A DNA stretch of 64,000 bases, taken from assembly GCA_030248295.1 (NCBI GenBank), contig JASANH010000737.1, positions 1 to 64,000 on the forward strand, written 5' to 3'. This DNA is from Mesodorylaimus sp. YZB2_4. Taxonomy: Eukaryota; Nematoda; Enoplea; Dorylaimida; Dorylaimidae. Shown piece by piece: positions 4,194-54,914 of the stretch. Numbering within the stretch: the stretch's first letter is position 1; every line of letters starts with the position of its first letter. The notes under the pieces are model-generated. The model was not told the origin of the DNA, made no database searches, and saw nothing but the letters and a program-made list of their open reading frames with translations. Both the position numbers and the translations under genes were made by a program.

Positions 4194-5112
4194 TCATGGC
4201 CTGTAGCTGTAATAGGCGCATTCTGGTCGGGGAGCAGTCAACCCGTGCTTGGCGCTATCGGTTTCGTCCAAGGCGAGCATCTCGCAATCGCCATTAATCC
4301 ACATATTGAAGCTGCGACACCATGGTTTTTCGGCGCAATTGGTCGAACAATCTGTGGCGCTGGATACCGACTGTATTTTCTCAATCACCATGCTTTGGTC
4401 CGCGCATTAGCTTGGCACATAGTCGAAGTCTTGGATTTTATCTACAGTTTTAAAAAATTCAGACTTTCATATGAGGGAAAAAAGACGGAAAAACAGCTTG
4501 CTCAGCGTCAAAAAACTTCAAGCTAATGTGAGAAGGATAGCCTCAGAGACTTCGGCGCTTACTTACTGAATACGGAACAAAGTACGTAAAATATATTCGT
4601 TTCATTGCACCTACGGTCGCCAAAATTTTTTGTTTTATTCCAAAGATGTCCGCATAACGAATCACCAGTGCCTGGATCATCGGCAAGGTGCCACTGCAGG
4701 ATTGTCTTGTCGAAGCTGAGATTTTGATCGATCGAGGTAATGTCAGAGTGAAATTGGGTGAACGGACCGAATAATTGGGTTGCATTGGCCATTGCAGTGT
4801 TCTTAATGGCTACCCAAAATCCAGATGTCGCGGGAAGTCCCTGGAAAAATCAATATTTCTGACCAATTAAGAAAAAGCAAGTCGAGCATACTGTCGAGTA
4901 ATTTTGAATCGCCGCCATTTCTTTGCTTGTAAAAATTTGAGTGAAGGTCGCATTATTGCTCTGGCATATTGCGAAGGCATCCAGCCAACTACTCTTCATG
5001 TAGCCGCCAGTGGTGTTGCGAGGAACGAAATAACAACGACCACCGTGGATTGTCCCTCCGTGAGTACTCTTGCACATTCGCTCAAATGTGGTTTGATCGA
5101 CGCAGTACTGGC
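4194..5112 (-). pseudogene. CTLD-PAN copy A, probable pseudogene with an in-frame stop
   Basis: This is the most diverged of four related lectin genes in the window. Exons are 5112-4892 (CTLD first half), 4840-4567 (CTLD second half) and 4441-4194 (PAN/Apple). Splice sites and phases match copies B-D, but exon sizes are 221, 274 and 248 nt against 224, 271 and 248. The CTLD keeps its cysteines (AFAICQ, SLCGHL, RRCNE, YVLC). In the PAN exon the codon after VPS, where B-D read PNSC, is TAA at about 4408, so translation would stop before the PAN cysteines. The frame reopens and reaches the family ending YYSYRP-stop. No good signal-peptide exon was found. A decayed match to it, without the ATG, may lie at about 5465-5505 (shared GATGACT). 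A truncated CTLD-only product or a sequencing error remains possible. Confidence 0.75.
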
Positions 5113-5736
5113 CTAAAACAGCTTTTTTTACTCACTCGAAATATGAGCTAAGCAGCTTTGTAGTGCTTCCTTCATCGAAATATTCATAATGAAGCTTCTT
5201 CATTTAACTGAAATATGATTAAGCGCTTGCACAACCATGAAAAATTGGAAGTAATCCGCAAAATACCAGAGATTTTGAGGGGCTCGTTTTTTTTATCAGA
5301 GCCTGTCTCCCATTTTGCAGACACTGGAAGCCAAACTATATGGAGGGATAAAAACATTTTCTAAACCTGAGTATGTCAGCGAGATCTGCAGCGTAAAAAT
5401 TTGTACTGTAAAACACAAATTAAATTAAACTGTAAAACCAACTATGGTTACGGAATAATGTCAAGTTTTTTTAGTCATCAAACAGCACAATGCGAAGGAG
5501 CGTTGCGCTATTGAGCAATGGCAGGAAATTCCAAAGTAGAAGCGAGCAAAAACGGTGATTCGGCTCATTAATGACTTATCTTTAAAAAAATTATAAAACA
5601 TTTATCTCTGACCTGCGCTCAAAGACACGAGTCCCTCAAAAAATCTGCTCAGACATTATGCAGCATGGTTCAAACAGTGGGAGACATTGGTCCCGCCTTG
5701 CTTGCAGGGGTAACCGAGGTCCCAGTTCTATTCTGG

Positions 5737-8700
5737 CTAAAAAGGCAGTTTAGTGAGCGCATTCGAGTGGGAGCTGGTGTCTGACGACAGTTCAGTAAGA
5801 ATGTCGCTGGCTCTGGGCGACTCAACCAGTGCTGTCATGTCGGGAGGGTCCTTCCGTTCTCGCCTAGCATCATCCTTGGACGCGTGCTGGGTGGGTGCCC
5901 TCGTGTTGCAGTCCTCATAGTTGAGACCCTCTGTAAGGGGGAATGAAGATCTAGTTAAATCCGTTACGCAACTGGGCATGACCTCGTCTGATGGTGGGCT
6001 CGAGTCTAATGATAGCTGATGATTGCTGTGTGTGGAGCTGGTTTCCCTCTGTGTAGTGTGTTATCTGTTCTGTGCTGGTGCACTCTTGCCCTGATAGGTT
6101 GGTGCCTTTTGACTGATTAGTGTTGTGCCAGCGCGTGCTCGGTGCGGTGGAATGATAGACCTCTTCTATAAGACACGAGGTCTTATAACACAGAGGGGGC
6201 GAAAAGGTCCTTACCTTTCACACAGCAGCAAATCGCAAGAAATACTGTAAGCATGAGCCAGATCATCGTGAATGGCCTTAATGCGGAAAGAAAGATTTTT
6301 GTTCTCCACCTAACGTTTTGTACCAGGCTACAACTGAACAGCGCAGCTTGCATTACAGCAAGAAGCTCGAGAAGACAACCCCCGTGGTGAAAATCTTGAA
6401 TTCGAGACGATCCAAATCTTATGGACTTGGACCAAATTTGTCTGGATCGAACAATAAAGATAGCCTGAAGATATTACTGTATAATCAATGCTGAGGCTGA
6501 ATCCCTGCTAGGCGCTTCGACCATGAGCAGATCCTGCTAGTACCAGTTTTTTTGGTCATTTTATGGCGGCGTACAGCTAAGCTTTAAAGTTTTGTTAGCC
6601 CCAAGAAATGATTAAAACAGTCCAAAAAAAGGAATTGAGTTTTTCAGTTTTCCAAGAAACATTTTAAAATCCTCTTTCCTTGATGTTGAAGACAGCCAGG
6701 GAAGATAGCAGGCACTACCTTATACCAGCGCTTACTTCGTATTAGAGATGTTGTATAAGAGCAGCCAGGTCGTCAAATTTTCATACAAAAGACACTACCA
6801 TGCCAGCATACTTGTGTCTCTACACGACCCCTGGGAACCATTGTGTACGTAAGTGACCCTTTTTTTCTCAGTTGGATTCCGAAGAATTGATTTTCTATGG
6901 TTTGTTGCGCGCGAGGACACTGTGTATAGCGGGTCATCTTATTTGAGGCATTGTGCAGGCAAGGGAGGGAGCGGCGTGATTTTTTATGAAAGCTGATAAG
7001 CTTACAAGGGAACATCGCCAACCGTTAAGTCAAACTTTGAGAAACCAAAAATTGTGATATGTTCCTGGGTGCAAAAGAAAGCTCTGTACCAAATGTAAGA
7101 GGCGTCTGGCCAACTGGTCAGCAGTGGTCAGCGTCTAAAGTCCCAAATTTTTGTGTGGTAACGAAGCTGAACTTTCTAAACTAAGTTTTTGGGTTCGGAG
7201 TGTCGATTTAAAGCTTCAAACACTCGGCTTTGGGGTTTTTTCCTGAAAAAAAACAGAAAATAAAGCGGAATTTGAAAATTTCATTTACTCTAAGCGCTGA
7301 CCACAACTGACCGGTTGGCCAGACGACTCTTATATTTTGCACAGAGCTTTCTATTACAACCAGGAGCATGTTACAATTTTTGGTTTTCCAAAATTCAACC
7401 TAACGGTTGGCGAAGTTTCCTTGTTAGTGGATAAGAATCCGCAGCAGACCTTGCATCTCGTGTGATGCAGTTGAAATTCTGCGTACTGGCCAGAATAGAT
7501 GGTGAGCTGAAGCGCTGATCTTAGCGCAGAAAGGTTGCAGAAGCCGTCGAAAAACAATAAGAGCAAGCGCCACTACGCAAAGCCCGAGAGTTAGACATAT
7601 CCAGCCCACTAGGACCACGAGCACAGGATTGCATGGTCCTCTGCAAGGATCAGTCGTCCTGTTGATATTGATGCAGAGAAAGCAGCTTCTGCTCAGCCCT
7701 GATCCGGGAAGCCTTGATCCGCCAAGTTGAACTAGATAGTTATAATCGATGACTGTAAATTCTTTCTAGGTAGAAAGAGCTAATTGCACATTGGACCCGT
7801 CTATGAAGCCCGGCAGCAATACTCAGCGCCTAGAGTCGTAAGTTCTCGAACTCCTGTATGGAAAGAAGAAAGAGTATTGGAGAAAGCTTGCAGATGCTAA
7901 ACCAGGTTTTAAGGTCCTACGCTTTGGACCCAGGTCCGACATCGGGTACCCGACCCTTACCCGACACGAAAACCCGACCCAAAAAGTCGGGGTTTGATTT
8001 TGGAGCCCCCAAAAATCCTGACTCTCACTTCATCCCACGGATGGACCAAAAGTTCTCGATACAAATTCGCTTATCAAACCGTTAGCCCACTTTCTTGCGC
8101 TCAACTCGCATAAAATTAAAATCCACCACTGCTGCTCAGTTGACCAGACGGGCTCGATATTTTTCAGAGAGCAAGTTTTTGCTCCTAACAATCACTGGCT
8201 ATGTCAACATCGACATGGTTGACGACGCTAACTTGTAGGCACCGGATCAGGTCAGGTTGAACCTGACGGTCAACCCGACCAGAGCCGAAAATCCTTGACC
8301 CGAAATTTCGGGTCAGGTAGACCCAGACTCGCTTTAGCAGCTAAAGTTCCTTGAGATAAAAGCCTTGCACATATCCTCAGAGCATGTGATGACTTTTCTG
8401 TAAAGGTGACTGTGTGGAAAATGATAGAAGCATTTCATTAAACGCATTCGAATTTTCATGTTTTGTTATCCCTAGTACTCCTTCCAAAACAGCATTTCTT
8501 CATATTTCCGACTATACTAGTCTAATTACGTGAAAAATACCTTGGTAGATCTGACGGCGACTAAAGGCTGTTTGTTATTTTTTGGCAAGATATAATCAAT
8601 TAAAATAATATAGACTACTTGCATAATTTTTGCAATTAGAGACAGGCTATACCGGCTGAATGTAGAAATACCCAAATAGATATTTACCCACCCAATAGTA

Positions 8701-23200: not shown

Positions 23201-26200
23201 CGACAAAAAAACTGACCGCTTCGACAGGATTCCGCAGTCCTAATCAGCAGTGCTAGCGTGAGAAACAAAATCAGGAAAGAAACTCAGCCATAGAGATTGT
23301 AAAAAGTGGATCACGATTAGAGGGTGAATCTAAGTGGTGATGAAGACTCTGCGATACTGCAGTTATGTCCAATTCTTTGGCACTGCTGCTGTTTCGAGTA
23401 ACTGATGTGTTATCGCCACAGCTGGAAGCTTTTTGCATTTACATCTCAATTGATCACGTCAATCGGTTGCTAGAAGCGCTAATTTCTACCTTTTATAATT
23501 ATCTTGATGAAAGTTAAACGCCGAAGACTTCAGGCTGTGGATAATTTTGCGATAACACAACATTTCCTCGAAGCAACAGCATTGCAAATCAACAGGACGT
23601 TTCGACAGAATCTCACAGTCCTCGTCAGCACTCTTTCATACACACTCTCATCATTCTCTAATTCTCACAACCTCTGTCTCCTGAGTTTTTCTCCTATTCA
23701 CAGTCGAACGCTAGTACTGCTGACGAAGACCATGGGATATGATCGAAACGCCCACTTCTTTTTTACTGATGCTGCGCCGACCAACTGACTATATTGAATA
23801 TCAACAGCCTAAACCCTTTCGCACTTATTCTTCCCAAGATCATTACAAAATGCAGAGTAGTGCCGCTTCTAGCAGCCGATTGCTCGTTTTGCTATAAGTG
23901 GTACCCTACCAGCCTTGGCGGGAATCAGAATTCCGCATAGCCGTATCTTTTAGACAAGATTATGCAAAAACACTAGTTCCGTCATTTCGTCTCCTGCTTC
24001 CGAGAGTCTAAAAAATGCTTCCTAATCACACTCATTTCACTCGCGCTTTCCCCTTCAAACAGTGCTATGAGACGCCTCAATTCAGGAGGTTCTATATATA
24101 TATATAAAATTAACAGTGCAGATGGGATAAAATCATGGGACTAAACGTTGATGATAGCGATTTTATCAACTGCATATAATGCATGTGGGCGACTGCCCCC
24201 TATGTGTCATTTTGAAGCTCGGTAGGTTGTTTATATGTAAATCTGGATTTCACAGCCTTACCTGGAGTGAGGTAAACAGGAGGCACTGCTTTGCCTTCAT
24301 CCGATACTTTCTCCAATTCTTGTAACGCCAACAAATGATTCCACAATGCTGACTTTCCCTGAAACGAATCACACCTGATTTTTGTCGATGATAAAAAATA
24401 TTCATCCTTTGGAGTTTTCAAGGATTTCCACTCTTAAAAAATGTTTATAAAGTAGTCATATAAGTTTTCAATTTAAATTGACCGAGTCACATTTTTTAGT
24501 TATAAATGTCGAAAGCCAATCGCAGAGCGTCGCATAGCTTTCGAGACGCTCCCTCAATGCTTTCATTTTTTTCTAGCCATTGTCGCTCACTGTCTACAGT
24601 AGACACACCAGTGCATCTTCGACAGGTGTGTTCCAGTCAAATGGCTAGTTCCCTCTTATCTCTTCATCAAAAAATACTGTTTACCTTCTTCTTATGTAAA
24701 CCATGACTCCATATCCTTTCGATCAAATCGCACAGACTCGCCACCAACGTATTCTCCTCGACACCAGTTATACTTAAATCGGCGTGACCCAATTCCACAG
24801 CCTCTTTACCCATTTTTTCGACCAGCATTCTTTTCGTCTTAGCTTTTGCTTCGCGCAATAATTGTTCAACGAAGCGCCAATTCGTTTGAGCTACTTGAGC
24901 TGGCGTTAAATCGTTGGCCAAACCAGTCAGATTTGTGCTATTTCTATAACTTTTCGCTGTGCCACCGACTTGATTCGCCGCATAGCGCTGAAATGGTACA
25001 CTAAGTTAAGAAAACTTTGCGAGCAGGCAATTGACGATTTCTTGATGCACTGATCCAGATATTCTATAAGTGCACAACTACATGAATGTGGCAAGCAGTA
25101 AGTCCAGCAAACTAGAATGCCTAGCAGTGACAGTGGCTGCTGTCATTGCATGACTCTGTGCAAATGTCAGCAACAAATTCTCAAAAGGTTCTCCGAATCA
25201 ACCTAAAAATTTTTATCGATTCATAACTGTGTTAGCCCTGTCACTGTCGCCCTCGTTATAGCCTCGCAAAATTAAACGTCTACCGTTTACGACAGATGCC
25301 GGGCTTTCACCTCGTGGCCTGGTGGGTCAGGCATCTGCCTCTCACGCCAGGCGCGCAGTTACGGGCGAGTGTTCGACTCGAGGGCCAGTAAATCATTTCG
25401 TGTAAAATGTGTCCCTTCACCCTCGAGTGCGCATAAGCGTTTGGTGATGTGGTAAAACATGAACATGAGATGCGCATTTATGAGAGCGCTCGATCAAGCA
25501 AGCCAATTTCAATAACAAACTGGTTTTCTACGCTCTCACTTGTCCTCCAATCCAAACATTTTTTGCATAGTGACATAACATGTCCTATTCTGGTCTCCCC
25601 TAAGCCACCACCAGTTCGCTGTTTTTATTCATTTTTCCGCTCTCCGCCTGTTAGTGATTCAAAGTCAGCAAGCCATCGCCTTTCAACCAATTGTAAGTCA
25701 TTTCACGCTAAGCAGCAGACGAAATAGCATTGAGTGACACTATTAACAATTCTTTGAACGGAAACCAGTTCAGTTAGTTGAATATATCTCCCTCAATTTA
25801 AACAAATATCCCGTTTTATGTCTACAAAAATGTAAACCATTCAACCTCTTCCCTTTCTCCTAGCTCTCAGAAAAAAACTATTTTTGGTCATACTTACATC
25901 ATTTGCGCTTTGTTCCTTTTGCCTCAAATGTCTATATCTTTGCTTCCAAGGACTTCGTTGAGGGCTACAAAAAAAATCAAGCTCCGTTAAAACGAGGGTT
26001 AGTTGCCCGTTTATATCCATCTACATACTAAATTAAATTTCCCCCCAATAAAGCAAAAATCGATTCGTTACCTAGCCGGCGGCGGACGATTCAAAACGTT
26101 TGCATCGAGTAGCGGAAAAAAGCCAGGCTCGTGTACTCGACCAAACCCGACTCCTCCACTCGTCGCCGATGCTACGCCCGAGTCAGGCGAATCGATCAAC

Positions 26201-30437: not shown

Positions 30438-32909
30438 GTTTTCTTGTACTTTTCACAAAACTAGGCATTCGACCGCTTCTTAGAGTAACGGAAAGGACGA
30501 GTGCCAGGAAACATTCAGGTTTCCCATACTAACTAGCGAATGAGGGCCAGTTTGACGAGGCAACAAACAGCAAAGAGCCTTTTTATGAGGCGTCACGCGT
30601 TCAAGCGCGTCAGGGACTGAAAAATTTCTTGATTGACATGCTCCTCGTCGGCCACCGACTAGAAACAGCTCTATTTTGAGAAGAGCGGCTGGTAATTGGC
30701 CGCCCGCCCTGGGCAACCAGCCGCTAGCGCACGGGGTACGCAGTGTCATAAGCAGTCACCGACTTGACTACAGTAAAAAGAGGAGGGAGCTCAAAATTTT
30801 TGTTTGATCTTGTCTTTTTCTTTATTATTGGCGGAGTGACAAGTGGAGCATGTGCAACAAGCTAAAAGCCCATGGCAACCAGGCAAGTCTTCCGACCTTG
30901 TTAATTAATCCTTATGGGTGCAGCTCTGTGCAGTATCGATGGCCTGTTGAGCAACAACATACGCAGGCATAAAAAATATATATTTACTGGAACCAGAGTT
31001 TATCTATGCTTCCCTCGGCGACACATGCTTGCAATTACATTTCTGTGAGTATCTAATACTCATGAACAGTATCAAATGCATGATGAATGACATGATTACT
31101 TGCATGTCGTTTCAACAATACTCATTAAACTTTTGATGATGTGCTGGTTTCTCCTGGAGGAGGGGCCTGGGGGGGGGGGGGGGTCAGGAAGACCCTGACC
31201 CCTCACCCTCCTGACACGGTTGAGGTGGTCCTAGACACCGACATTCTAGAGACAGTCTCCTCGTTTGTCTTCTGTTCGACGATACTTAGTGAGTCATTCA
31301 CTGCAAGGTCAGCGAGTGTTTCTGGTTCGCAAACCAGCCTCCAGCACTAGGAATCGAGCCTAGGATGACCCAGCCACTCGCTCGCAAGCAATGCGGGGGA
31401 CGAATGCTGAGCAGCACCATCGCGGCCACATCAACCCGATGGGTTGACGCTCCTAGCTAGCTCAGGGAGGATCGATTCTTCTCTCCTACTCGCCATGGCC
31501 TGTCAGGCAGTGATGTTATACCAGCTGCAAAAGAAAATGTGCGATGTAATTATCAATGTACGACTCTCTGATCGCAGATCCCGCCACAAGTCGAGAAACG
31601 TCTGGACGTACTCCTTGGAGCTGGTCCTCACATGCCCATTTTCATGGCATATGTACCAGCACGTTCCCGCTGATATATCCGCATGGTTTCCAGAAGAAAG
31701 GGATTTTGAGACTAATGGGCGAAGTGTTTCTTTTGCCTGCTTGTATTCATGCATTTATTAACGCAGCCGCATGCTAGCATAGCAAAGAGCATTGGGCTCG
31801 CATATGCAAGTCGCGTTATTCGCGTGTTCAAATCGCAAGTACACTTGACTTGGCCTTCCTTAGGGCTCAGTCGTTTTATGAATGGTCCACTGGCCACCAG
31901 AGTGTGGTGTCTTCTGATTCTGCCTAACATTACGCGCAGTCGGATCTCCTCGGAATGGTCACTGGCATAAGTGATCAGCCAGCTGCGGCCAGTCAGCCGG
32001 CCAGCCGGTTTGTGGTAAAGCGATATATACCTATTAATCCAGAGATCGATGTAACCCTTGCGCATGGTAGGCCATGGCGAGGAGGAGAAAGTTCTCGATA
32101 TCCCCTGGCTGGTTTCACTTGCACGAGCAGGTATACTTGCAAAACTTTCCTTTCTCCAGTCAGAGTCTTTGTCCCGCCAACATACATCCCCTTCTACTGT
32201 ACGCAAGGCCTGGTTACACTGGCAAGGCCTAGCGTTTTAGCCCCCAAAGTCCGTAACCCTAGATTCAGTTCGCTCACTAGGAGTTTTTGATTGTCAGTCG
32301 CATGCTCCCACGCCGACCAGGTGGTTGCAGGGCGGATCGGAAGTTTGACGTTCTTTTGCAATCTGTACAACATTATACAGTGCAGCAAGCCGTTGATGCG
32401 AAGCCCTCTTCCGCACTTTACTCCACCCTTTCGCCTTGCCTAATGCCCTACACTCCTTATCTGCATCCTTGCATCCGTAGAGTACCTAGCTGGGAAATGA
32501 GCACTGAGTGGTCCCATCTTCGCCATTGTTTCATTTTCCGACTCGTGTTTCCGAGTGTCGAAGTATTCGTGTACAAGTTCATAAGTTAGCCGAAGCCAAA
32601 ACGGAAATTAGCTCGCAATAATCTTGAGATTTTCTTGAAACTCTTCTTCGACGATGTCAAACTACGTCAGAAACGCATGCTTGACGCAAAGCCACCCGCC
32701 ACGAAATCAATCGTAATCTTCACTTTCCAGTGATTTGCCGACGTTGGTCGAGTCAGGCTTAGTCGCTCTTTGTAATAGATCGATTCTTGTAGCTTTTCGC
32801 AGTCTCTGGCATCATTGATAGAGAGAACACCGTTTCCAAAAATCGTTGGCACGACCTACTGCAGCGTTCTTTCGATTTCCTCTGATCTTGTGCAAGAAAC
32901 CACGAGAAT
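30438..32909. other. Spacer between DENND5 and the GPCR, no gene seen; one G15 tract and one tRNA-like stretch
   Basis: No exon chain was found. 31169-31183 is a run of 15 G. 31430-31470 belongs to the CAACCCGATGGGTTG hairpin family. 31765-31835 is tRNA-like (TAGCAAAGAGC as A box, GTTCAAATC as B box) and may be a SINE head. The DENND5 and GPCR promoters face away from each other here, so this spacer should contain both. Confidence 0.6.
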
Positions 32910-34100
32910 ATGAATTCTTCAGTGACCATCCCCACCATCTCCTGGTTTTCTTTAAACGCCAACTTATCTCTGCCAAGTATAACCGGCGTCTGGCCATGGG
33001 GACATCTTCTCTCAATCGACGACTGGTCATCTATGATTACTCGATTGAGAGCCACCAGAAGTGGCATTCGCGCCTTTGGTACTTACTCGCAATTCCCCTT
33101 TTACTTCCTGGGTTTCCTGGGTGGTGCCCTGACCATACTCACTGTGCGCTGTATGCCCCCGCAGTCAGTCACTGCATTCCACCGAGTTCTTTCGCTTATC
33201 GCACTGCTTGATATGATCTTCGTTATCTTAAAATTTGGTAGATACTTAGCCCAGCTTCACGACATGAGCAACCCCAGCTTACTGTACTTTTATGCTTACG
33301 CCTCGGCCATAGCTTACACGTGTTCATTGACCAGTGATATCATCGCTTTGTGGCTGAGTATGGAACGGTATTTGGCCTTGGCTTGGCCTATTTTCTATCA
33401 AGGGTTGCTACCTGGCCAAAAACGACGAGGTTGGCTATTCGCAATATTTCTCTCCTTGCTTTTAGGGTCGACTCGCATGCACTACGCTTTCGACACATTC
33501 GACTATCCTGGCGCCGTGAAAAATGAGCAATGGTTTCAAGGCGCTGTTTTTTTCAGCGATACAGTAATCCCTTTTATAATAACAGGAATCATGCTTATTT
33601 TTGTGCTCGGTATAACCAAGGTTGTGAGCAAGAGACTGAGGCAAAAGATGGTCCACGTTCGTCAAATAGGGCAACCCACAAATAAACAGAAGGAGATCAA
33701 TGAGGCGCTTAAAACTGTTTCTTTGTTGAGTGTCCTATTGGCTATGTTTTTCCTTAACCAGCTCGCTTATATCATGTACACCGTGGCTGGGTTTTTGATG
33801 ACCAAGGCGGGCGCATCATTGACTTATTCGAGTTCACTGGAAGATATAACAAGGTACATGAGCGCGCTATACTTTGCTTACATCGGAACGGGTCTCAGTG
33901 CCCCACTGGAAACCATATCTCGATCCTTGCCATTTTATATGTATTTCGTGTTTTGTAGTAGTTTTCGTCAGGAATTTTTCAAAGTCATGAAGAAATTCAG
34001 CTTTGGGTCATCGATCGAAATTTTAATCAGTAATCATAAAGGATTGGGAAAAAGTGGAGCTGATCGAAGACATCAGAATATAGATAATGGCAGAAATTAG
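32910..34100 (+). CDS. Orphan class A (rhodopsin-like) GPCR, 396 aa, single exon
   Basis: Seven hydrophobic segments lie at about 62-82, 91-111, 125-150, 173-190, 211-236, 266-296 and 313-340, with an extracellular N-terminus bearing NSS and NLS glycosylation sites. TM3 ends in MERYLALAWPIF, the E/DRY position. TM5 is followed by a basic third loop (KVVSKRLRQK). Helix 8 is SSFRQEFFKVMKKF. It resembles invertebrate peptide-receptor-like orphans (FMRFamide-receptor type) in the ERY and TM7-helix 8 region. Odd points: I see no cysteine at the usual TM3 top or in the second extracellular loop, and NPxxY is replaced by SRSLPFYMYF. It reads outward from the 5' side of DENND5. The intronless structure suggests retroposition or a typical chemoreceptor-like family. 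Ligand unknown. Confidence 0.85.
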   Translation: MNSSVTIPTISWFSLNANLSLPSITGVWPWGHLLSIDDWSSMITRLRATRSGIRAFGTYSQFPFYFLGFLGGALTILTVRCMPPQSVTAFHRVLSLIALLDMIFVILKFGRYLAQLHDMSNPSLLYFYAYASAIAYTCSLTSDIIALWLSMERYLALAWPIFYQGLLPGQKRRGWLFAIFLSLLLGSTRMHYAFDTFDYPGAVKNEQWFQGAVFFSDTVIPFIITGIMLIFVLGITKVVSKRLRQKMVHVRQIGQPTNKQKEINEALKTVSLLSVLLAMFFLNQLAYIMYTVAGFLMTKAGASLTYSSSLEDITRYMSALYFAYIGTGLSAPLETISRSLPFYMYFVFCSSFRQEFFKVMKKFSFGSSIEILISNHKGLGKSGADRRHQNIDNGRN

Positions 34101-36412: not shown

Positions 36413-37490
36413 TCACGGCCTGTTGCTGTAATGGTAGCATCCTGGTTTGGGTGCGAGAAAGCCGTGCTTAGACGCGTCTGATTGATCGAACATGGAAATT
36501 TCGCAATCGCCATTGAGATACCAATTGAAACTACGACACGGCCTCCTTATTGCGCATCGATACGCGCAGTCGTTCACAGTGGCCATTGACTTATCGATTA
36601 GAATAATTGCGTCTTGGTTTATGCACGAGTTCGGAAAATGGTCGTAGTCATGCATGGTGTCTGCAAAACAGTTTAAAGGTGCACAACCAAAGAGTAACCC
36701 CACTAATCGTAAGACTTGCTCGCTGCGTCTTACAGACTACTGTAGCATCGAACACCGCCCCATTGTGGCCATCACGCAGACTCACTTGTCAGAGCGCATA
36801 AAGGAGGCAAAAGTGTTTCGCACGGGACGTCTTCGAATTTGCTAGAGTTGGTATTCAGAACCAAGCACGCCCCATCCCCTGGATTGGGATCGTCAGTAAG
36901 ACGCCCTTGCAGAAATGTCACGTTCACATTTTGTTTTGCGTGGGTAATGTTGGCGAAAGTGAAGATTTGGGTGAACGGGCCGAAGACATTGCCATTAACA
37001 TTTGCCATTGGGTTGTTTTTCATGCTCACGTAAACGTATTTGACGCCAAGGTTTTTCTAAAAAAGTTTGAATTCGAAGAACCGTAAGATGTCAAGGAAAC
37101 CTGAAAAATGCATACCGCCATATGATTCGAAATGATTGCGGTCTCCTTGTTTGTTAAAATCAAACCCAAAAGAGCGTTTTTGCTCTTGCAAACTCCATAC
37201 GCATCGTCCCAATTGCTTTTTATGTAGCCCCCACTGGATGTGTCCGATGGAAGGAAGAAACAGCGGCCCCCAACTGCCACTCCGCCATACTCAGTCGAAC
37301 AGATTTGTTTGAAATCGATTGGATCAACGCAGTACTGACCTGAAAAAGGGCTGCGTAGCATCGTGAATTCATGCGATGCGTGTGGATTTTTGTCAATGCT
37401 CATGTGGAGATTCCGCGGCTCGCATATGAAAAATGTTTTCTCACTTTCAACAACAGACACTAGGCAGAAAATGAATAAGTGGCGAATCAT
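36413..37490 (-). CDS. CTLD-PAN copy B, secreted C-type-lectin plus PAN/Apple protein, 262 aa, intact
   Basis: Predicted secreted protein. Exons: 37490-37445 (signal peptide, MIRHLFIFCLVSVVE), 37339-37116 and 37056-36786 (CTLD), 36660-36413 (PAN). CDS is 789 nt with junction phases 1, 0, 1. CTLD residues are about 16-180. Cysteines include QYCVD, QICST, GRCFF, GVCKS, GACLVL, VPCET and PLCAL, in the usual spacing. There is a partial Ca-site-like DDPNPGD but no WND motif, so calcium-dependent sugar binding is uncertain. PAN is about 181-262: NSCINQ, NDCAYRC, PCRSFNWY, GDCEIS, PGCYHYSNRP-stop. NVT and NIT are glycosylation sites. This copy has the smallest introns (105, 59 and 125 nt) and may be closest to the ancestral layout. 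PAN and CTLD modules bind carbohydrate or protein; the real ligand is unknown. Confidence 0.9.
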
Positions 37491-39989: not shown

Positions 39990-42900
39990 TTACGGCCTGT
40001 TGCTGAAGTAGTTGCACCCTTGTCTGGGTGCGAGCAGGCCTTTCTTAGAGGCGTCTAGTTGATCCATGGCGGACAGTTCACAAATGCCGATTGAATACCA
40101 GTTGAAACTGCGACACCACTTTCTCTTAGAGCATCGGAGTGCACAGTCGTTTATAGTGATGATTGACGTTACATTCGTGATTACAAATTTTTGATCAATG
40201 CATGAGTTTGGAGCATGCTCGAAATCTTTCATGGTGTCTGCAAAATAAAATTAGGTCTTACAATTAACGAAGTACAAGGTTGAGACATTTTACTATCTGT
40301 TATCTTTTGGAATGTACACGCGGCACCATGGGCGATCCGAGGCTGGCAGCAACACTTGGACGGCTAAGCAATGTCGACCTAACCTCTTATAACAGAACCC
40401 GCCATTTTTAAAATCTGCATAGTGCGCGCATATGTGCATATCTTGTTGAGTAAACAATGTAACCGTGCTAAGGAGCAGATATTTGTTTCTGCTATGCGAT
40501 AAGAGGTTCGGATCAGGGGTCGGCGATCCAAGTGTGCTGCCAGCTCTGGTTCGCACCATAGGCGACGGGCGTGTATATTCCAAAGAAAGTAGGTAATAAA
40601 ATGTTTTAAAGCTCACAAGCGGGTAGGACATTTTCCAAGTTAAGCACAGTCAAGGCACAATCACATACATTTGGAATTAGGGCGTCTGTAGTGAACTTGT
40701 GTTGTCCTCCTACTTTGAATGTGCGCAATAACTGTCCTACGCATCAAGGCTGTGTGCTAGACTGGTGGACGGGTGTGCGTTGGGATTAACGCGCTTACAA
40801 TTTCGTGTGTGCAAACAATATACAACCTTCTTCATAGCGCAGTCTTTTCAAGGTGGTAAGGATACTGTTACTCGATCCTCTAGTTCTTGAGTTCGGTTCC
40901 TTTCTCTGCACATATATTCAGCTTCATACATTCATTCTGCCAATCTGTCAATCGGCTTCATGGCAACTCATCTTTTGATTCAAGCACAAAGATTCGTGTG
41001 AAGTCTGTTTCTTGAAGGCGGTAGTGATTTAATGGCAAGCAATTTTAAGTAGTGCATGAGGAGTAATAAGGGATAACACTTTACAACGGTTTTCAATGGT
41101 CGATAGCCCTGGGGCCTGTTTCACCAACACTCCGTCCTTTGTTAACGGATCCTTTCTGAAATGGACGGAGGGAGGAGTGTTTCACCAGCATATTTCGAAT
41201 CTGTACGCTGCTAGGCAGACATGCGTCAACGCCAGAGGCAGCGACTGTTTGCGACCGCAACGAAATCGTATGAGCGGTCGCTAGACAAGTCATGCAGGTA
41301 CAGTATGTGCTTGATACTTGACTCTAGCCTTGGCTATCTGACAAGCTCTGTTGATTGTCTGTCTGTCTCACTTGGGCCTGGACTCCAAAGCATAAGAGTA
41401 CATCTGAAATATATAGAAATGCTTTGTTCAGCAGTTGTACTGCATACTTCGGTAATACAAACGCCTTCGCTAGACGCAGAGGTCAGCGGTCAAAGTCCTG
41501 CAAAGTCTTTTAACATTCTCGCTTCGTCAGGTCTTTCGTGAAAGGCAAGAAATTTAGAACCAGAAGCCTGGAAGACGAAACCAAAGCCCATAACCCTGAA
41601 CAGCGGGTTCAGAAGAGCCCTGCGAGTGTTTCTCAACTTTCTGTCGCCTCGCAGCACAAAAATTGGAAAAACCCGCAAGATTTTAGGAGCTGACGGCTGC
41701 TGACCAGCTGGCCATAAGGGTCAAATATTTTCAGTAGAGCTTTCTTCCGCACCAAGAGCTCGGGAATTGTCGAATAAGCATGTCAAGTTTAACTCAGTGG
41801 TTGGCAAAGCTTTCTAAGATCAAGAAGATGTAACTTTAAAATGTTTGTAATAAAATGATTGAAACTGAAGAAACCCTTTTTCATGAATTGTAGTTACTTT
41901 TATTTTATGATACTGTACCGACTGCTTTTCAACATGGACCTCGCCTAGCTTATAACTTCTTTCACTCGGCGCTAGCCTGCAGGAAATGATGAAGCACTAG
42001 AGTATTCGTGAAGATTTTGCAACTTCTCTCTACATTTGGACCAAAATTCGAATTGATCGATTTTTTGCGATAACTAGGGTTTTACGGATAGCAAAATGAA
42101 ATGATTCGATTAAGATGATTCAAACCAGCAAATCGTCTGGCTGCGTTTCGTTCCTCTTTGAGATCTTTTAGATTTGAGATCTAACATCCGCATACAGATT
42201 TCTAATTTTCAAAAGCGTAGTAACTTGAAAACTCAATTTTAACTGAATCTACACTTGAATTCAGTTTTGGCGAGGAGATTCAGTCTCAGTTTCGGTCACA
42301 GTTGACTAAATTAGATAAATTCAGTTAACCGATAGATTCAATTTCAGTTTCAGGTTTCGCTAGTTTCAACGCTAGTTTCAGTATAGACCTGAGAAACAGT
42401 TCATTGCCCAGCATATGGCGACAACTTCGGACGGCCGAACAATCGATGAGGTTTGGGCAGGTATTGCAATTCGGTATAGAAGGGCACCAGTCACTACAGA
42501 GACAGAACTAGAGATCTCTGTTTGCACTTACAATCTGTATATTCGCTTAACAGTATATGTAGATGGTGTATTTTGCTTGGTCGTGGAGTCGACTGCGGGG
42601 AATGCAAGTATGGTCACGCTAGGAGTGCATATTGTATTGGTGGGTGACTGAAGTTCAAAATGGACGTATGGAGAGTGTGGGTGTCGTCTAACGATAAGAC
42701 GTATTGAGAGTGTGCATGTTTTATATGTCCAGTGCACCAAACATTAGACAGACTGTGGTATGACTAATTCAGCTCATGCACTCAACCTGAATCGCAAGAC
42801 TATGTTGAAGCAGTCTTGCGGGTACTCGGGTCTGCTACATACTGTCAGGGCTTAGGACTAAAGATTAGAGCGGGGAGGGGAGATTTTTCATTTTACTTCT

Positions 42901-45900
42901 TACAAGTTGCTTACAAGTTGCTTGTTAGTGAGAAGCTTTGGGTTCTCTAGTCCTAAGCACCTTAGACCTTTTTAAAGGGGGTACTCTATTAGGTATCGGA
43001 CTATACACTCAGACTTACTCGACAATGTGCACAAGACATGCAAAGATGTCGTGCAAGGAGTATCCGCGAATTTGCTCGCCTGGTTATGCAGCATCAAACA
43101 TGCCCCGTCGCCTGAATTAATGTCGTCAAACCGGCGCCACTGCAGAAACGTCATGTTCGCTTCTAATCTCACGTGAGAGGTGTTTTCAGCGGTGTACAAA
43201 AGAGTGAACGGGCCAAAGAGATCGCCCTTGACACTAGCCTGTGGGTTGTTTTTCATCGCTATCAAAACAGATTTGTTGCCGATAGTTCCCTGAAACACGA
43301 AGCGTGAAGATGATGCACGGTTGAAGCCTGACAAGAATAAGGAGCAGTCGTACCATTACGTATTTTGAAATCGCTGCTATCTCGCTGTTTGTGAAAACCA
43401 AACTAAAATATGCGTTTTTGCTTGTGCAAATGTCGAATGCATTGTCCCAAGTGCTTCTAATATAGGCGCCAGTTGATGCGTTCGAAGGAAGGAAAAAACA
43501 GCGGCCCCCATTCACCACTCCGCCATACTCGGTCGAACAGATTTGCTTGAAGTCGATTGGATCCACGCAGTACTGACCTGTACGAAGAGCACATGACACC
43601 TTCTATACCATCTAAATGTGTCTCACTTTTAACCGTGGCTGTACTACAGACATCACAAGCTCACAGTTCAAACCCAGTCATAGAACAGGGGTCTCCTTAC
43701 GCTAGTCCTGCCCACAAGCCAATCAAACTACAGCTGTATCTGCAGAACGATGTTGAGGGTCAAACGAATAACATTTTTTAAATGTTCACGCCAAACGCAT
43801 TAGCTTTTGGTCTGCCTCTCAAAACCCAGTTTCACTTCACACCGCTACTTTTCCCTGCGCAAATGTAATTATTTCTAAAAAAATCTGTTAGCAGACAACA
43901 AAAAGGTTAGCCCAGCCACCCTACTCGAACCATATGCGAGGCAAACGGGGTTGGCTGGGCTTCCTCGGCGGCACATGCTTAAGTGGGTTATACTTATCTG
44001 GACGTGATATATCTTTTATGTTGCCTTCAGGGCGAGGCTCACAATCGTTCTTCCACACTCACCCACAACGTATGTCTCTGTGATGTACTTGGTACCTCGT
44101 GAAGTTCATGAGCAGACACGGTAGTGCGGATAAGAGTTTCTGACCATGAAATGGACGATCTTTAGGCGGTCTTTACGAGTAATTTCAATGGCGCGGGTTA
44201 CCGTTCCGTTTGATGCTTCTCTTTTAAAGAAGTTTGGAAAAGGTGTATGACAGTCAAGTCACTCAATTCTCTTAGTTGTAGGAACAAGTGTTTTGAGCCA
44301 AACTAGTTTCTAGCAAAAAACTAAAAACGGTTTTATTATTTTCAAAAAAGTCTGTTATGCCAGACTCAAAACTTTTAGACCAGCCAATGCACACAGTGGA
44401 GCCCGGGCTTAGAATGGTTGGTCTACTCGGCCACAAGAAAAACGAGAGGTGGCCCAACATGTTAGGCACTGCAAACAGCTTGTAATTGCTCGCACACATA
44501 CTGTACGTATGCATGGATATGTCAGCATCCAAGCCGCAAAGCTGTGTTCTGTGTACTGCTGCTGTTCATACAGGCTCCCCTACCCTGCTACGGGCACCAT
44601 GCGACTAAACGCGTCAAGCGACTATTCGCAACCGCAACAAAATCGACTGCGAGGTAGCGTGCGGCCCTGTACCAGGCGTCTGGGCAGCGTCTGGCTGGCG
44701 AGCCTGACCCCATAGTCCGTGCTAATGATAAGTTGTCTTGCTGTACGTCTTGCCTTATTTAAACCGTTTTTGGTTGATTAAGTGCCTTGCGATTGCATTT
44801 TTAGCGCTACCTGTAGTACCCTATAGCTGTTGTTGGGAATGGAATGGAGCAATTGATGTCGATGCGCCTAATACAGCACAGTACATCCCTTGGCGCAGCC
44901 GCGTATTTTGCCGCACGCCACCTCGCACCCGCTTTCGTTGCGGTTGCGAATAGTCGCCGGACGCGTTTAGTCTCATGGTGCCCGTAGCAGGGTAGGAAAT
45001 AGAAAAGTGCCTCCCCAAAGACAGCTGTGCTGGTCCACACGAGCAACCTGCCTACTGTATGCTAAAGCTGTAGCACTGCGAGGGAAGTGATTTGGCTTGT
45101 CGTTAGACCTATGCCTCGAGGTAAACTGAAAAATATTTTGCCCTTCTTTCAACTTTATGTTTACGCTCATGGTTTATCATATCAGTAATGACACAATCGA
45201 GGGTGAACGGACACATGACACAAAATGATTTACTTATCCGCGAGTCGACGAACACTCTCTAGTAACAATAAGAGCAAGCGCTACTACACATAGCCCGAGC
45301 CATAGACACTCCAAGCCCACTTTGAGGACCACAAGCACAGGATTGCGTGATTCTCTGCTCGTTGCCAAGATCAGTCGTCCTGCTGATATTCATGCAGAAA
45401 AAGTAGCCTCTGCTCAGACATTTTTCCTAAAGCGTGTTTGCGTGAAGCAGTGGCCGAGTAGACCAGCCATCCCAAGCCCTAGTTCCACTGTGTGCATTGG
45501 CTGGTCTAAAAGTTTTGAGTCTGACATAACAGACTTTTTTGGGAATAATTCAGTTTGTGTCTGCCCCAGTAAGTACGCTCTTGCTGCTTTGTGTCGCAGT
45601 AGAGCTTGATATTCGAGGAAAATCGGCCATGATTAGCAGTAATCAGGCACATAATCGATTATGGGTGAATTATAAAAGTTAAAATCCCCTGTTTTTTTCC
45701 GCTGAAATACATAAGAACCTTGGGTCAGAACATCATAAAACAACCCAAATTTTCGCACTACAGACCAAAGTTTCAGTTTCTGAACTCTGGATCGGGGACT
45801 CAGGAGGCAGTATAAATGTTCTGCCATGCACAGAGTGGCAGAGAACTCTGTACAGAGCGCGCAGTCAGAGAGACCGTGGTGGCAAGTATAAATAAACGAA

Positions 45901-46085
45901 CCTTAAGCACTGAAATACGCAAAGCAGGCTAAAGTCGCGAGCAACCGCTGTCATCAATCAGTTTTCACTGGATTTCGATTGCATACAAATATACTGTACA
46001 AAAGAAACTTACTAAATGAATCAAGGGGGTTTCACTTACTTTTGACTTGAGTCATCAAGCAGCAAATAAATATTTTGCGAATCAT
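39990..46085 (-). CDS. CTLD-PAN copy C, secreted C-type-lectin plus PAN/Apple protein, 262 aa, intact but transposon-expanded
   Basis: Exons: 46085-46040 (signal peptide MIRKIFICCLMTQVK), 43577-43354 and 43289-43019 (CTLD), 40237-39990 (PAN). Exon sizes 46, 224, 271 and 248 nt and phases are identical to B and D. Introns 1 (2.46 kb) and 3 (2.78 kb) are swollen by mobile DNA (44343-45543, 40304-40586, 41690-41830, a SINE), while intron 2 remains 64 nt. CTLD: GRCFFLPSNAST, DICTSKNA, GACLMLHN, TPCTTS, HVLCTL. PAN: NSCIDQ, NDCALRC, WCRSFNWY, GICELS, GCNYFSNRP-stop. Compared with D, exon 2 differs at 2 of about 74 residues, exon 3 at 15 of 90 and the PAN exon at 28 of 81. The exon 1 link across 2.4 kb rests on sequence and phase match, not on transcript data. 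Homologous 5' flank precedes the ATG. Confidence 0.85.
40304..40586. mobile_element. Fold-back element of about 280 bp in intron 3 of copy C
   Basis: The left arm (CTTTTGGAATGTACACGC, then GCTGGCAGCAACACTTGGA, then AACCTCTTATAA) is mirrored by the right arm (ATAAGAGGTT, then TCCAAGTGTGCTGCCAGC, then GCGTGTATATTCCAAAG). Arms are about 95 nt with a central spacer of about 90 nt. No coding frame is present. Confidence 0.8.
41690..41830 (+). repeat. Single, diverged arm of the GGCCAACTGGTCAG MITE in intron 3 of copy C
   Basis: GACGGCTGCTGACCAGCTGG, then AATATTTTCAGTAGAGCTTTCTT and ACTCAGTGGTTGGCAAAGCTTTC follow the order of the right arm at 58600-58740. Confidence 0.6.
41831..42971. other. Intron 3 of copy C, no additional gene seen
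   Basis: AT-rich, with repeated short words such as AACTGAAT and TTCAGTTT around 42190-42390, much as at 9480-9560. No exon was recognised. Confidence 0.5.
45170..45272 (-). repeat. tRNA-derived SINE, truncated copy
   Basis: The reverse complement has GAGTGTTCGTCGACTCGCGG, then AAATCATTTTGTGT and GTTCACCCTCGATTGTG, matching the B box and body of the copies at 25313 and 56135. The tRNA-like 5' end is missing. Confidence 0.65.
45271..45425 (-). pseudogene. Decayed copy of the membrane-segment exon of the 5.7-11.9 kb gene
   Basis: The reverse complement aligns with 7700-7556. Both read CTGAGCAGA, then TTCTGCAT or CTCTGCAT, AGGACGACTGATC, CAATCCTGTGCT, TGTGGTCCT or CGTGGTCCTA, and GTAGTRGCGCTTGCTCTTAT. 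A length change after the Cys-rich part shifts the frame, so the membrane helix is not read in phase. It is flanked by a SINE on one side and a fold-back arm on the other. Confidence 0.65.
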
Positions 46086-51165: not shown

Positions 51166-51436
51166 GACTGTTGCTGTTGTTTCTGGGTTGGCGCTGGTTG
51201 CTGTTGTTGCGTTCGACCACTCGCACCTTGCTGTTCACCACGTCAACCACGGCCACAGCCACGTCCTTTACAATGCCCACGTGCCCCACCACGACCACCG
51301 CTGAGTCCGTTTTGGCCACCACCGAATCCAGCATTGCAATAAGAGGCGCGCTGGCGCGAGACAGAAAAAGCTTGGAACAAGAAAGATTGAGGAGGGGGAA
51401 GTGGAAATGGTTGAGTAGCTGCCCAGCTTCGTTACG
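51166..51436 (-). pseudogene. Degenerate Gly/Arg- and Gln-rich coding remnant
   Basis: On the minus strand one frame reads a Pro-rich stretch (FPLPPPQSF), then GFGGGQNGLSGGRGGARG and GRGCGRG, a stop, then a Gln-rich tail (RTQQQQQPAPTQKQQQQS) and a second stop. The RGG and Gln composition recalls RNA-binding tails (LSM4, SmD, fibrillarin) or a retroelement gag-like tail. I cannot choose between them. The internal stop and lack of a start argue for a pseudogene fragment, or chance low complexity. Confidence 0.35.
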
Positions 51437-51673
51437 AAGTTTCTCAAGCTTAGTTGTGCATGCAAAGGCAAGCGGTAAGAGCAACTTAAAACACGAACAC
51501 GAACATATTGTGCGCGAATATTTTCTTGCCGATCAAAAAACGCCTTTTGTAAAAAAAACCTTCAAATAAATTGCTTGTTGCATGTTGAATAATTGAGGGC
51601 CTAACCTCAACCGCTGTTTTGCTTTCTTCGAATATTGAATTTCTCAGTCCCCTTACCAAAGCCTCAGTGTGGT

Positions 51674-51749
51674 CAGTGTGATTATGAATGCGACATCACA
51701 CACTGACAAAATTTTGTTAGTGTGTGATGTCGCATTCATAATCACACTG
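51674..51749. repeat. Near-perfect 76-nt palindrome
   Basis: The left arm CAGTGTGATTATGAATGCGA continues through CATCACACACTGACAAAA and is repeated inverted in the right arm with one difference, centred on AAAATTTT. It would form a 38-bp hairpin with almost no loop. No larger element around it was recognised. Confidence 0.95.
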
Positions 51750-52693
51750 AGTGTGAGCGCCATGCCAGAAAAAGTGAAATGTCAGGGTTACTTCGCGGAG
51801 GCGAAAGCTCCAGAACTTTTACTCCTGCGTAGAGTCGAGCCTTGGTCACTCAGCTTTGAAACCCAGCTCTCTACCAAGGCAAGCGCGTACGCAGGGGGGG
51901 GGGGGGGTGGTGCTTTGGGGGCTCGGGCCCCCTACGACCCTGAAAAGTAAGGTAAGGGTAGCTACCTTCACAAACTCCGTGGAGTCCCGGCCATGCGTTT
52001 GGTTGTATGTCCACTTCATACATTTTTATGCTTTCGCAGAGCAAGATTGAAATTTTTTGCCTCCGGCGAGGCGGAGATAACCCCAGTGACGAGCACAACG
52101 GGTGGCATCGCGGCCATTGGTCCCCTTCTAAATCAGAGAAGTGGCCAGAGTGGGCACCTAGTTGATAACATTGAAGGTTTTTTTTATTTATGGTGAGTAC
52201 GGTATGCTGACAAAGATGGCACTCATTGCTTCTGTAAGATCAGAAAGATTGTGCGCAAATTTTGGAAGGTCAGATCCCTTTGCACCCCGCCCACTCTCGG
52301 GCGCTTCGCGCCCTCGGATCGCGCCTTCGGCGCGTATTTTGAAATACCAAACTGGACTCCATTTTCTATTCAGCCACATCCGTTTCCTGGACTTTGCGCG
52401 ATGCACTAAATTAGCATATTTATGCAAATTTTTTGTTGAGGCCCCACGACCCCCAAATCCTGCGTATCTCAGAACACACAAAAATATTTTGGCAAGCCAG
52501 CGAAAAGAATTTTCAAATTCACAGATGCAAAAGTGGCTACAGCGTGAACCGTCACAGTCAGTAAATATCATCCATCTGTTTTCTCTATTTCATCGACATT
52601 GACAGAAACCAATCCATATGCCTAGCTTCGACCACACTTTCTCCCCGACTGCCAGGATCGATGTCATCTGAGTCTTCTGTACAAGCTGGCATT
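51750..52693. other. No gene seen; G14 tract and GC-rich hairpins
   Basis: 51894-51907 is a run of 14 G. 52295-52340 has nested short hairpins (GGGCGCTTCGCGCCC, CGCGCCTTCGGCGCG). The plus and minus frames of 127-146 codons over 52162-52602 show no domain and are probably chance. Confidence 0.5.
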
Positions 52694-54914
52694 TTACGGC
52701 CTGTAGCTGAAGTAGTTGCATCCTGGCTTAGGTGCGAGCAAGCCTTTCTTAGAGGCGTCTGGTTGATCCAAGGCGAACATGTCGCATCCCCCGTTCGAAT
52801 ACCAATTGAAACTACGACAAAACTTCCTCCTAGAGCAATGCAATGCACATTTGTCTATCGTCGGTGTCGACGCCAACGTGTCAACAACATATTGTTGACC
52901 CATGCACGAGTTTGGGATATGGTCAAAGTCTTTCATGGTGTCTGCAAAATAATCTTAGACGTTATAATGAATCAATAACACATTCGTGACGTTTTGAAAT
53001 CGCTTTAGCACTATCACACCATGGCACATGCCCTTTGAAGATGTTGAGTTAGACATACCTACATACTTTATTGGGGTATGGATATCAGACTCATATTTTC
53101 AGTATCAGTAGTAGGACGCCAATAAACATTCAGACTTACTTGACAACGTGCACAAAATATTCAAAGATGTCGTGCAGGGAGTATCCGCGAATTTGCTCGC
53201 CTGGTTATGCAACATCAAACATGCCCCGTCGCCTGATTTCATGTCATCAGACAGGCGCCACTGCAAAAACGTCATGTTCGTTTCTAATCTCACGTGCGAT
53301 GTGTTGGCAGCAATGTAAAAAAGAGTAAACGGGCCAAAGAGATTGCCGTTGACAGTGGCCTGAGGGTTGTTTTTCATTGCTATCAAAACAGATTTGTTGC
53401 CGACAGCTCCCTGAAACAGTGAACAGAAAGAGGCTGCAAGATTAAGGCCCCAAGAAGAATGAGAAACAGTCGTACCATTACGTATTTTGAAATCGCTGCT
53501 ATCTCGCTGTTTGTGAAAACCAAACTGAAATATGCGTTTCTGCTTGTGCAAATGCTGAATGCATTGTCCCATGTACTTCTAATATAGGCGCCAGTTGATG
53601 CGTTCGAGGGAAGGAAAAAACAGCGGCCCCCATTTACCACTCCGCCATACTCGGTCGAACAGATTTGCTTGAAGTCGATTGGATCCACGCAGTATTGACC
53701 TATAAGAAGAGCGTATGGCACCTACTTTACCATCTAAAACGGTGCAGGTCTCCACAGAAAAGGTCCATCTGATGACGATGAACACATCTGTCGCAGCCAG
53801 TTCACTTATCCGAGCTCTTCCCATTGGCACCCCCACCAGCACTATTTCACGAGTTTTACAACCCTCGATCATGCGCTGGCCTGCACCAAGACCGAACCAA
53901 CATGCAGTGCCTGCCACTTTTGTACCAGTGACAATTCTCACTCTGCACCTTCGGACACAAGTACGTTTGTCGCACCTTTTAATCCCTCCCTACCATTAGA
54001 GAAAGTGACTAAAGACCTTTTGCACCACGCCTATCACCAAGAACAGCCAATCCAGACTGGTAGTAAATGTCTGCACCACTTTGACTGCTGACTTTCTGAA
54101 CACCCGGCTCTGTGCAAAGAACGTATTGTTAGGCAGTCGTTTCGAAACAAATTTCAAGCTTCGTGCGCAGGGAAAATTTTAATTTCCTGCTTCAAGCCGC
54201 TTATGAGAATTTTGCGTAGACAAAGTGCTATACTATATGTGATAAATCATTGTTTCGCAAGCGACACCCACGCCCCCCCCCCCCCCCCCCCTAATGGTAT
54301 AAATCAGTCACCGTTGCCACGAAACGGCGTGAAGGCTCGGAAAGTAATGATAACAAAGAAACAGTGATAGGAGGCACAAAATCAGCCATATATGGTTAAT
54401 TGCCAAGGAAATTGGAATATGGCACTTTGGCGGTTTTTCGAATTTGTCGCCGATCAGGTTTGGTGTTTTGGTGTCTGCTAGAAGCGCCAACGAGTGACCA
54501 TCAGCCAGACCATAGTCTCAGATCCTTGTTCTTTCGTTTGATTCGTTTGAGACCATGATCTGGCTGATGGTCTTTTTTGGCACTTCTAGCAGACATCAAA
54601 CCTGATCGGCTGCAAAGTCAAAATAATCGCTAAATTGCCATATTCCAATTTCCTTGGCGATTAACCATGTATATGGTTGATTTTGCGCCTCCCAGCACTG
54701 ATTTTTGTCCCTTTCCGAGCCTTCACGCCGTTTCGTGGCAACTGTGACTAATTCATACCACTAGGGGGCGCGAGCGGCGACGCGAGCCAGGGATTTATCA
54801 CATACGAGTATAGTATAGCCATGACCATAGGGAAAAAACGGGGGGGGGGGGGGGGGGGCTCGACCTACTTGCAACCTGAGTCATCAAGAAGCAAATTAAT
54901 GGTTGACGAATCAT
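52694..54914 (-). CDS. CTLD-PAN copy D, secreted C-type-lectin plus PAN/Apple protein, 262 aa, intact
   Basis: Exons: 54914-54869 (signal peptide MIRQPLICFLMTQVA), 53699-53476 and 53410-53140 (CTLD), 52941-52694 (PAN). Sizes and phases are identical to B and C. CTLD: GRCFFLPSNAST, SICTSRNA, GACLMLHN, TPCTTS, NILCTL. PAN: NSCMGQ, DKCALHC, FCRSFNWY, GGCDMFALD, GCNYFSYRP-stop. The CTLD is nearly that of copy C, but the PAN is much more different. Intron 1 (1.17 kb) contains a 600-bp fold-back element. Its 5' splice site is followed 11 nt later by a 19-nt C tract (minus strand), which may make the donor region unstable. The role is presumably as for B and C. Confidence 0.85.
54227..54820. mobile_element. 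Fold-back element of about 600 bp with 280-nt arms, intron 1 of copy D
   Basis: The left arm (CTATACTATATGTGATAAATC ... GAAACGGCGTGAAGGCTCGG ... GCTAGAAGCGCCAA ... CCATCAGCCAGACCAT) is mirrored by the right arm (ATGATCTGGCTGATGG ... CCGAGCCTTCACGCCGTTTC ... GATTTATCACATACGAGTAT), leaving a spacer of about 20 nt. The left arm holds a C19 tract (54273-54291) where the right arm has CTAGGGGGCGCGAGC, so the C tract is an expansion within the arm. Confidence 0.9.
54840..54858 (+). repeat. G19 tract next to the exon 1 splice donor of copy D
   Basis: A run of 19 G on the plus strand (C on the gene's strand), starting 11 nt into intron 1 of copy D. Other runs: 31169-31183 (G15), 51894-51907 (G14), 54273-54291 (C19), 55541-55555 (C15), 56508-56524 (G17). 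Confidence 0.95.

Follow-up and report, generated by a model that had tools for sequence, protein, structure and literature searches.

The window studied here is a stretch of 64,000 nucleotides (nt) of DNA from the dorylaimid nematode Mesodorylaimus sp. YZB2_4 (assembly GCA_030248295.1, contig JASANH010000737.1, positions 1 to 64,000 of the forward strand). It carries four copies, A to D, of a gene that joins a C-type lectin-like domain (CTLD) to a C-terminal PAN domain of the Apple type, and it raises the question of what kind of family these copies represent and what such proteins would be used for. The copies follow an architecture and an exon template that recur in a genome-wide expansion, under purifying selection and with exchange between CTLD and PAN exons. 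That they form part of a large nematode family of secreted CTLD-Apple proteins used in humoral recognition is a reading whose chances we put at about even. The family appears to have spread by tandem and dispersed duplication of a unit composed of a signal peptide, a CTLD over two exons, and a one-exon, C-terminal Apple-type PAN domain.

A genome-wide CTLD-PAN family

Copies B, C, and D rebuild exactly as an earlier note on this DNA had described them, with exons of 46, 224, 271, and 248 nt in phases 1-0-1 and a coding length of 789 nt (262 residues and a stop). Their introns are all GT-AG, and copies A, B, C, and D all lie on the minus strand, as the note had it. The links between exons 1 to 4 in all copies are predicted from the DNA letters alone. 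The identical exon sizes are real in B, C, and D but are not peculiar to that trio, being the local instance of a genome-wide exon template, and the note's family of four members proved far too small: genome searches return at least 45 clusters with a CTLD and a PAN exon, plus at least 55 of a sister type.

These searches covered the 145 Mb genome to which the window belongs; in what follows, L-numbers denote loci or stretches of this genome and C-numbers its contigs. The same genome gives 133 matches to Col_cuticle_N, the N-terminal family of cuticle collagens, and 27 to TTR-52; both families are regarded as nematode-specific or nearly so, and their matches settle that the genome is a nematode's. 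For the first type, the best 150 of 470 candidates were taken into clusters, yielding at least 63 clusters on 25 contigs, of which at least 40 have exons 2, 3, and 4 and at least 45 have the CTLD together with the PAN exon. For the sister type, the conceptual L030 protein served as the query and the best 150 of 672 candidates were taken, yielding at least 89 clusters on 36 contigs, at least 55 of them with CTLD and PAN exons. No place is shared between the two sets of CTLD-plus-PAN clusters in a by-eye comparison of the listed matches. Together, these counts put the CTLD-PAN loci at roughly 100, broken copies and probable assembly duplicates included, which is a rough lower bound because scoring covered 150 of 470 candidates in one search and 150 of 672 in the other.

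The sister expansion was seen at L030 and on contigs C5, C32, C138, C159, C314, C12, and C84, and L030, the one sister-type gene read, has an EPN motif. Members of equal score or near-identical sequence occur at 31.5 kb of contig C584 and 2.9 kb of contig C673, and at 8.7 and 24.9 kb of contig C659; these may be haplotype duplicates or reflect an inverted-repeat contig.

From the genome stretches we built 34 models, 32 of them at distinct places. An intact-frame filter passed 29 of the 34. One place is represented twice among these (L013/L046), and L039 carries a frameshift in exon 4; the 27 distinct intact models formed the set for trees. Of the 34 models, 26 share the 248-nt length of exon 4 and 27 have an exon 2 of 221 or 224 nt; exon 3 ranges from 268 to 277 nt. 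A credible upstream signal-peptide exon was placed in most of the 32 distinct models, with a length of 46 nt in 19, 49 nt in four, and 52 nt in copy A; eight have none. This tally is our reading of candidates with GT donors only, and most of the eight models without such an exon lie in short stretches.

Domain composition and conserved cysteines

The earlier note had assigned a CTLD and a PAN domain to each protein, and a Pfam profile search bears this out, as copies B, C, and D all score above the curated cut-offs. Lectin_C matches B, D, and C with 25.7, 24.0, and 23.5 bits (cut-off 22.6), and PAN_1 matches them with 24.9, 32.0, and 31.7 bits (cut-off 21.4), copy C having entered the search without its exon 1. 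In a 10-member set at an expectation value (E) ≤ 0.01, PAN_1 was found in 10 of 10 sequences and Lectin_C in six. A profile of the family matched four sequences in the PDB at E ≤ 0.1, all of them CTLD proteins (REG4, the macrophage mannose receptor, and CD69 twice); these matches are weak, the best having E 0.013. PAN_3/CW was absent from the Pfam listing of B, C, and D at E up to 10, a range in which HMMER filters conceal most weak matches, and from that of the 10 members at E ≤ 0.01.

Several results stand on the other side. The Lectin_C scores only just clear the cut-off, and four of the 10 members have no Lectin_C match at E ≤ 0.01. A plain search of the copy D sequence against the PDB gave no match at E ≤ 1. 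An AlphaFold2 model of the PAN domain, calculated from three window sequences, has low confidence (mean predicted local distance difference test score, pLDDT, of 51) and supports nothing.

The cysteines are highly conserved. Thirteen are invariant in the 10-sequence alignment, seven in the CTLD and six in the PAN domain, and a larger alignment of 29 members retains each of the 13 in every sequence or in all but one. Six of the CTLD cysteines are C50, C138, C153, C161, C13, and C26, with a putative pairing. The seventh lies close to the mature N-terminus and lacks an evident partner; it may form an interchain bond and so link two chains. In exon 4 of copies B, C, and D, the PAN cysteines are C12, C31, C35, C41, C52, and C74, six being the count that an Apple domain should have. 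The Apple domains of plasma prekallikrein and factor XI are alike in having six cysteines, and the PAN_1 matches in 10 of 10 members fit this kinship. The proteins described here differ from those two in having a single Apple domain that is fused to a CTLD, and their models contain no protease domain.

The earlier note knew no named family with the order CTLD then PAN. The combination itself turns out to be known in nematodes, as a CTLD joined to a CW (PAN-3) module, according to PMC5297725; the version with PAN_1 differs and appears, from its sequence, to be a new variant. Table 2 of that source lists 16 C. elegans class IV genes with one or two CTLDs and one or two CW modules, and none in six other nematodes. 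Class IV resembles the present family in that nematode proteins carry a CTLD together with a PAN-type module, whereas here it is PAN_1 that matches, PAN_3/CW is not listed, and there are roughly 100 loci against 16 genes, which would be a far bigger set. The present proteins have a single CTLD followed by a single PAN domain at the extreme C-terminus; the comparison with class IV concerns domain content. The single-CTLD class I proteins of the same table are alike in having one CTLD and forming a large family, but are there without a PAN domain. No account of a CTLD plus PAN_1 family was found among the titles and abstract openings of the literature matches listed, a search that mostly left subscription papers outside.

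Predicted non-GT donors in intron 2

Intron 2, which separates the two halves of the CTLD, appears unusual for an animal in the donors it would use. Across the 32 distinct models, the intron 2 donor reads GT in 13, GC in 10, GG in six, and GA in three, so that 19 of 32 have G followed by a base other than T (GN; for example L033, L013, L034, L035, L043, L053, L055, and L062). The intron 3 donor is GT in 32 of 32. All four window copies have GT in intron 2, and the GN cases all lie outside the window. The rest of the donor is well conserved, with G at +1 and A at +3 in all 32 models, a pyrimidine at +4 in 29, and G at +5 in 27. In model building, G at +1 was a requirement for intron 3, and models of intron 2 gained score from G at +1, from either purine at +3, and from G at +5; conservation at +1, +3, and +5 is therefore only partly independent of the procedure, and the raw flanks show the same G-N-A-Y-G motif.

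As a control, 35 introns of seven alpha- and beta-tubulin loci were examined, with exon ends picked by eye, and all 35 have GT, as do three introns of the DENN-domain gene in the window, also read by eye; the tubulin controls represent housekeeping genes rather than a random intron sample. The distant relatives L030, L042, and L063 have GT at the place of intron 2 (by eye). On the CTLD tree of the 27 intact members, the +2 base requires at least nine changes, compared with a mean of 14.3 (range 10 to 17) for shuffled labels, which indicates that it is inherited but labile.

The GN models do not look degenerate. None of the 19 is scored broken, compared with five of the 13 GT models, copy A included (Fisher p 0.006, calculated on related copies that are not independent); L034, a GN model, lacks a few C-terminal residues. 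The median ratio of nonsynonymous to synonymous divergence (dN/dS) is 0.39 for GN pairs (17 pairs, 0.17 to 0.48) and 0.30 for GT pairs (five pairs). The constant position of the intron, the kept frame, and the intact copies favor the notion that the GN donors of intron 2 are spliced, and that one homologous short intron has been freed, family-wide, from the need for T at +2. We consider this reading evenly balanced. In that case, U6-type pairing at +4 to +6 may take over from U1 pairing at +2 in the recognition of intron 2.

Two points stand on the other side of this balance: GG and GA donors are seldom seen in animals, and conventional sites are available. For the 19 GN models we tried every GT donor between 45 nt upstream and 20 nt short of the acceptor, in combination with acceptors no more than 30 nt away, and an in-frame GT..AG alternative is available in 14, which may therefore be spliced at a GT elsewhere. 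In L050 and L055 the alternative shifts both sites by 4, with zero net change in length; in the other models it changes the length by approximately -15 to +6 residues, and by more where both sites are distant. The remaining five models (L034, L035, L043, L053, and L056) have no in-frame GT..AG alternative within the searched range. In L033, the assumed 59-nt intron 2 contains no GT, and use of a GT 21 nt upstream would cost seven residues.

A compensating variant of the U1 small nuclear RNA (snRNA) was also considered as the cause of the GN donors and rejected, as none of the U1 copies found changes the base opposite +2. The genome contains five U1 snRNA matches, three of which retain ACTTACCTG. 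Copy L068 reads ACTTACCTA and is altered opposite donor position -3; copy L067 reads ACTTACTTG and is altered opposite position -1.

Should the GN donors be spliced, the family would offer many natural point variants of one donor site in one genome, with GT controls alongside, and the tolerance of an animal spliceosome at +2 would become directly testable. Related introns have been described elsewhere. GA-AG introns are reported in the copepod Eurytemora affinis and the tunicate Oikopleura dioica, which are called outliers (PMC7072748), and GG donors in E. affinis are known from the title of a reference within the same paper; GC-AG introns are reported in Globodera (PMC4901422); and a tunicate study links such donors to altered U2AF and snRNA methylation (PMC13326754). 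All of these introns resemble intron 2 in combining a G-N 5' splice site with an AG acceptor. They differ, as described there, in being genome-wide, whereas the variation here is seen only in intron 2 of this family, as set against the tubulin introns and intron 3. The motifs differ as well: GNAYG here, AG before and A after GA in PMC7072748, and CAGG[T/C]AAGT in PMC4901422. No account of GG or GA donors in any nematode was found among the titles and abstract openings of the matches listed.

Purifying selection and exon exchange

The median pairwise dN/dS of the family is 0.31 (177 pairs with dS between 0.05 and 1.5; the pairs share members and are not independent). Taken with the recurrent signal-peptide exon, this value indicates that the shared anatomy is more than chance. 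For 32 pairs whose dS lies between 0.05 and 1, dN/dS in sliding windows stays below 1 everywhere except in one window (1.12), which sits at the poorly aligned junction of exons 2 and 3.

CTLD and PAN exons have partly separate histories, the mark of exon exchange or gene conversion. The CTLD of L052 clusters with that of L056 (support 100), and its PAN domain clusters with those of L051 and L054 (support 89). Between copies C and D, dS is 0.22 in the CTLD and 0.79 in the PAN domain. These divergent histories, together with the 2781-nt intron 3 of copy C, suggest that recombination in intron 3 can re-pair the two domains, which would give the family a built-in route to new domain pairings. Purifying selection and exon exchange together mark a living, recombining family.

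Proposed role and alternatives

Once the proteins are secreted, the CTLD would bypass the classical calcium/EPN site and bind its ligand through a different surface, and the six-cysteine PAN domain would supply a second surface for binding or assembly. Their most likely use would be as a recognition repertoire of the gut or body fluid, directed at microbes or glycoconjugates. Such a role, which for microbes or glycans the earlier note had already raised, is plausible by analogy: a part in defence is suggested by other nematode CTLD proteins, and PMC5297725 puts the pathogen-induced share of the CTLD genes of C. elegans at approximately one-fifth.

Two sets of results weigh against recognition of this kind. 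The canonical motifs for calcium-dependent sugar binding are missing in the branch of the window copies. EPN is present in none of the 29 aligned members; QPD occurs at the sugar-site positions in none, and its letters turn up only in copy D, within the PAN domain; and WND stands at its column in none, with W-N in no member. That column has D in all 29 and F in 25, FGD being the commonest form (17 of 29), and the letters WND occur elsewhere, in the first helix region, in four members. Among nematode CTLDs generally, no more than a small fraction retains sugar-binding residues, according to PMC5297725. The sliding windows, moreover, give no clear sign of diversifying selection, and with all but one of them below 1 there is no visible arms race.

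These same results would suit, in place of an immune function, a role in self-recognition or in a matrix, that is, in gamete interaction, seminal fluid, the eggshell, or the extracellular matrix. In its favor are the loss of the classical sugar site, selection that is purifying and not diversifying, and the presumed part of PAN modules in binding proteins or carbohydrates (PMC5297725). Approximately 100 loci, arrays, and broken copies resemble a repertoire for environmental recognition more, however, and we regard the self or matrix role as somewhat unlikely. That the proteins are secreted by a parasitic nematode for interaction with its host would fit their small size, their secretion, and the expansion of the family, and secreted C-type lectins of parasitic nematodes figure in reference titles of PMC5297725; since the same source reports larger CTLD families in free-living nematodes, we find this explanation quite improbable.

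The family could also be mostly decaying, with the GN-donor copies as splice-dead pseudogenes. Five of the 32 distinct models, copy A among them, were scored broken, and the median dN/dS of GN pairs is somewhat above that of GT pairs. Yet the broken models all have GT donors, and every GN pair has a dN/dS far under 1, which leaves decay of this sort very improbable. Humoral recognition by a secreted CTLD-Apple family is the likeliest reading.

Gene models in the window

Exon 1 of copy B (37445..37490, minus strand, as for all exons below; 46 nt) encodes the predicted signal peptide MIRHLFIFCLVSVVE followed by S at the junction. Exon 2 (37116..37339, 224 nt) encodes the first half of the CTLD and has the donor GTATGC, exon 3 (36786..37056, 271 nt) encodes the second half and has the donor GTGAGT, and exon 4 (36413..36660, 248 nt) encodes the PAN/Apple domain and the stop.

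In copy C, exon 1 (46040..46085, 46 nt; predicted signal peptide MIRKIFICCLMTQVK followed by S) is placed 2462 nt upstream of exon 2 (43354..43577, 224 nt, donor GTACGA). Exon 3 (43019..43289, 271 nt, donor GTAAGT) is separated by the 2781-nt intron 3 from exon 4 (39990..40237, 248 nt, PAN/Apple). The first intron contains two inverted repeats, 44335-44434/45450-45549 and 44579-44665/44910-44996. In copy D, exon 1 (54869..54914, 46 nt) encodes the predicted signal peptide MIRQPLICFLMTQVA followed by S, and exons 2 (53476..53699, 224 nt, donor GTACGA), 3 (53140..53410, 271 nt, donor GTAAGT), and 4 (52694..52941, 248 nt, PAN/Apple) follow. Its first intron also contains an inverted repeat (54271-54344/54711-54784), with long G or C runs alongside, and the inverted repeats of C and D are possibly small transposons.

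Copy A differs from these three. Its candidate exon 1 (6215..6266, 52 nt), predicted from the sequence, would encode MIWLMLTVFLAICCCVK followed by G, and an internal start that gives a 40-nt exon scores equally. Exons 2 (4892..5112, 221 nt) and 3 (4567..4840, 274 nt) are followed by a PAN exon 4 (4194..4441, 248 nt) with an in-frame TAA ending at nt 35, from which we read copy A as probably a pseudogene.

Other features of the window and genome

The DENN-domain gene lies at 24667-30279 on the minus strand, with uDENN, DENN, and dDENN exons, and we take it to be DENND5-like. Two G protein-coupled receptor (GPCR) sequences of chemoreceptor type lie on the plus strand, a single-frame 7tm_1/Srv-like GPCR at 32886-34100 and an Srsx-like fragment at 60147-60976.

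Elsewhere in the genome, several dozen Lectin_C matches form a dense array on contig C21 (899-951 kb), and many of them lie within long open frames. A search for 5.8S rRNA gave no match, and one for the spliced leader SL1 gave none either, although SL1 also failed to match in the controls. At L073 (contig C73, 253 kb), a COX1-like stretch lies in a large contig; its internal stops are exclusively TGA, and it scores 407 bits with mitochondrial translation table 5, 392 with table 13, and 384 with table 9, which speaks against the genome being that of a tunicate or flatworm. The sequence that follows is presumably ND4-like, and the stretch is either a mitochondrial insert or a misassembly.

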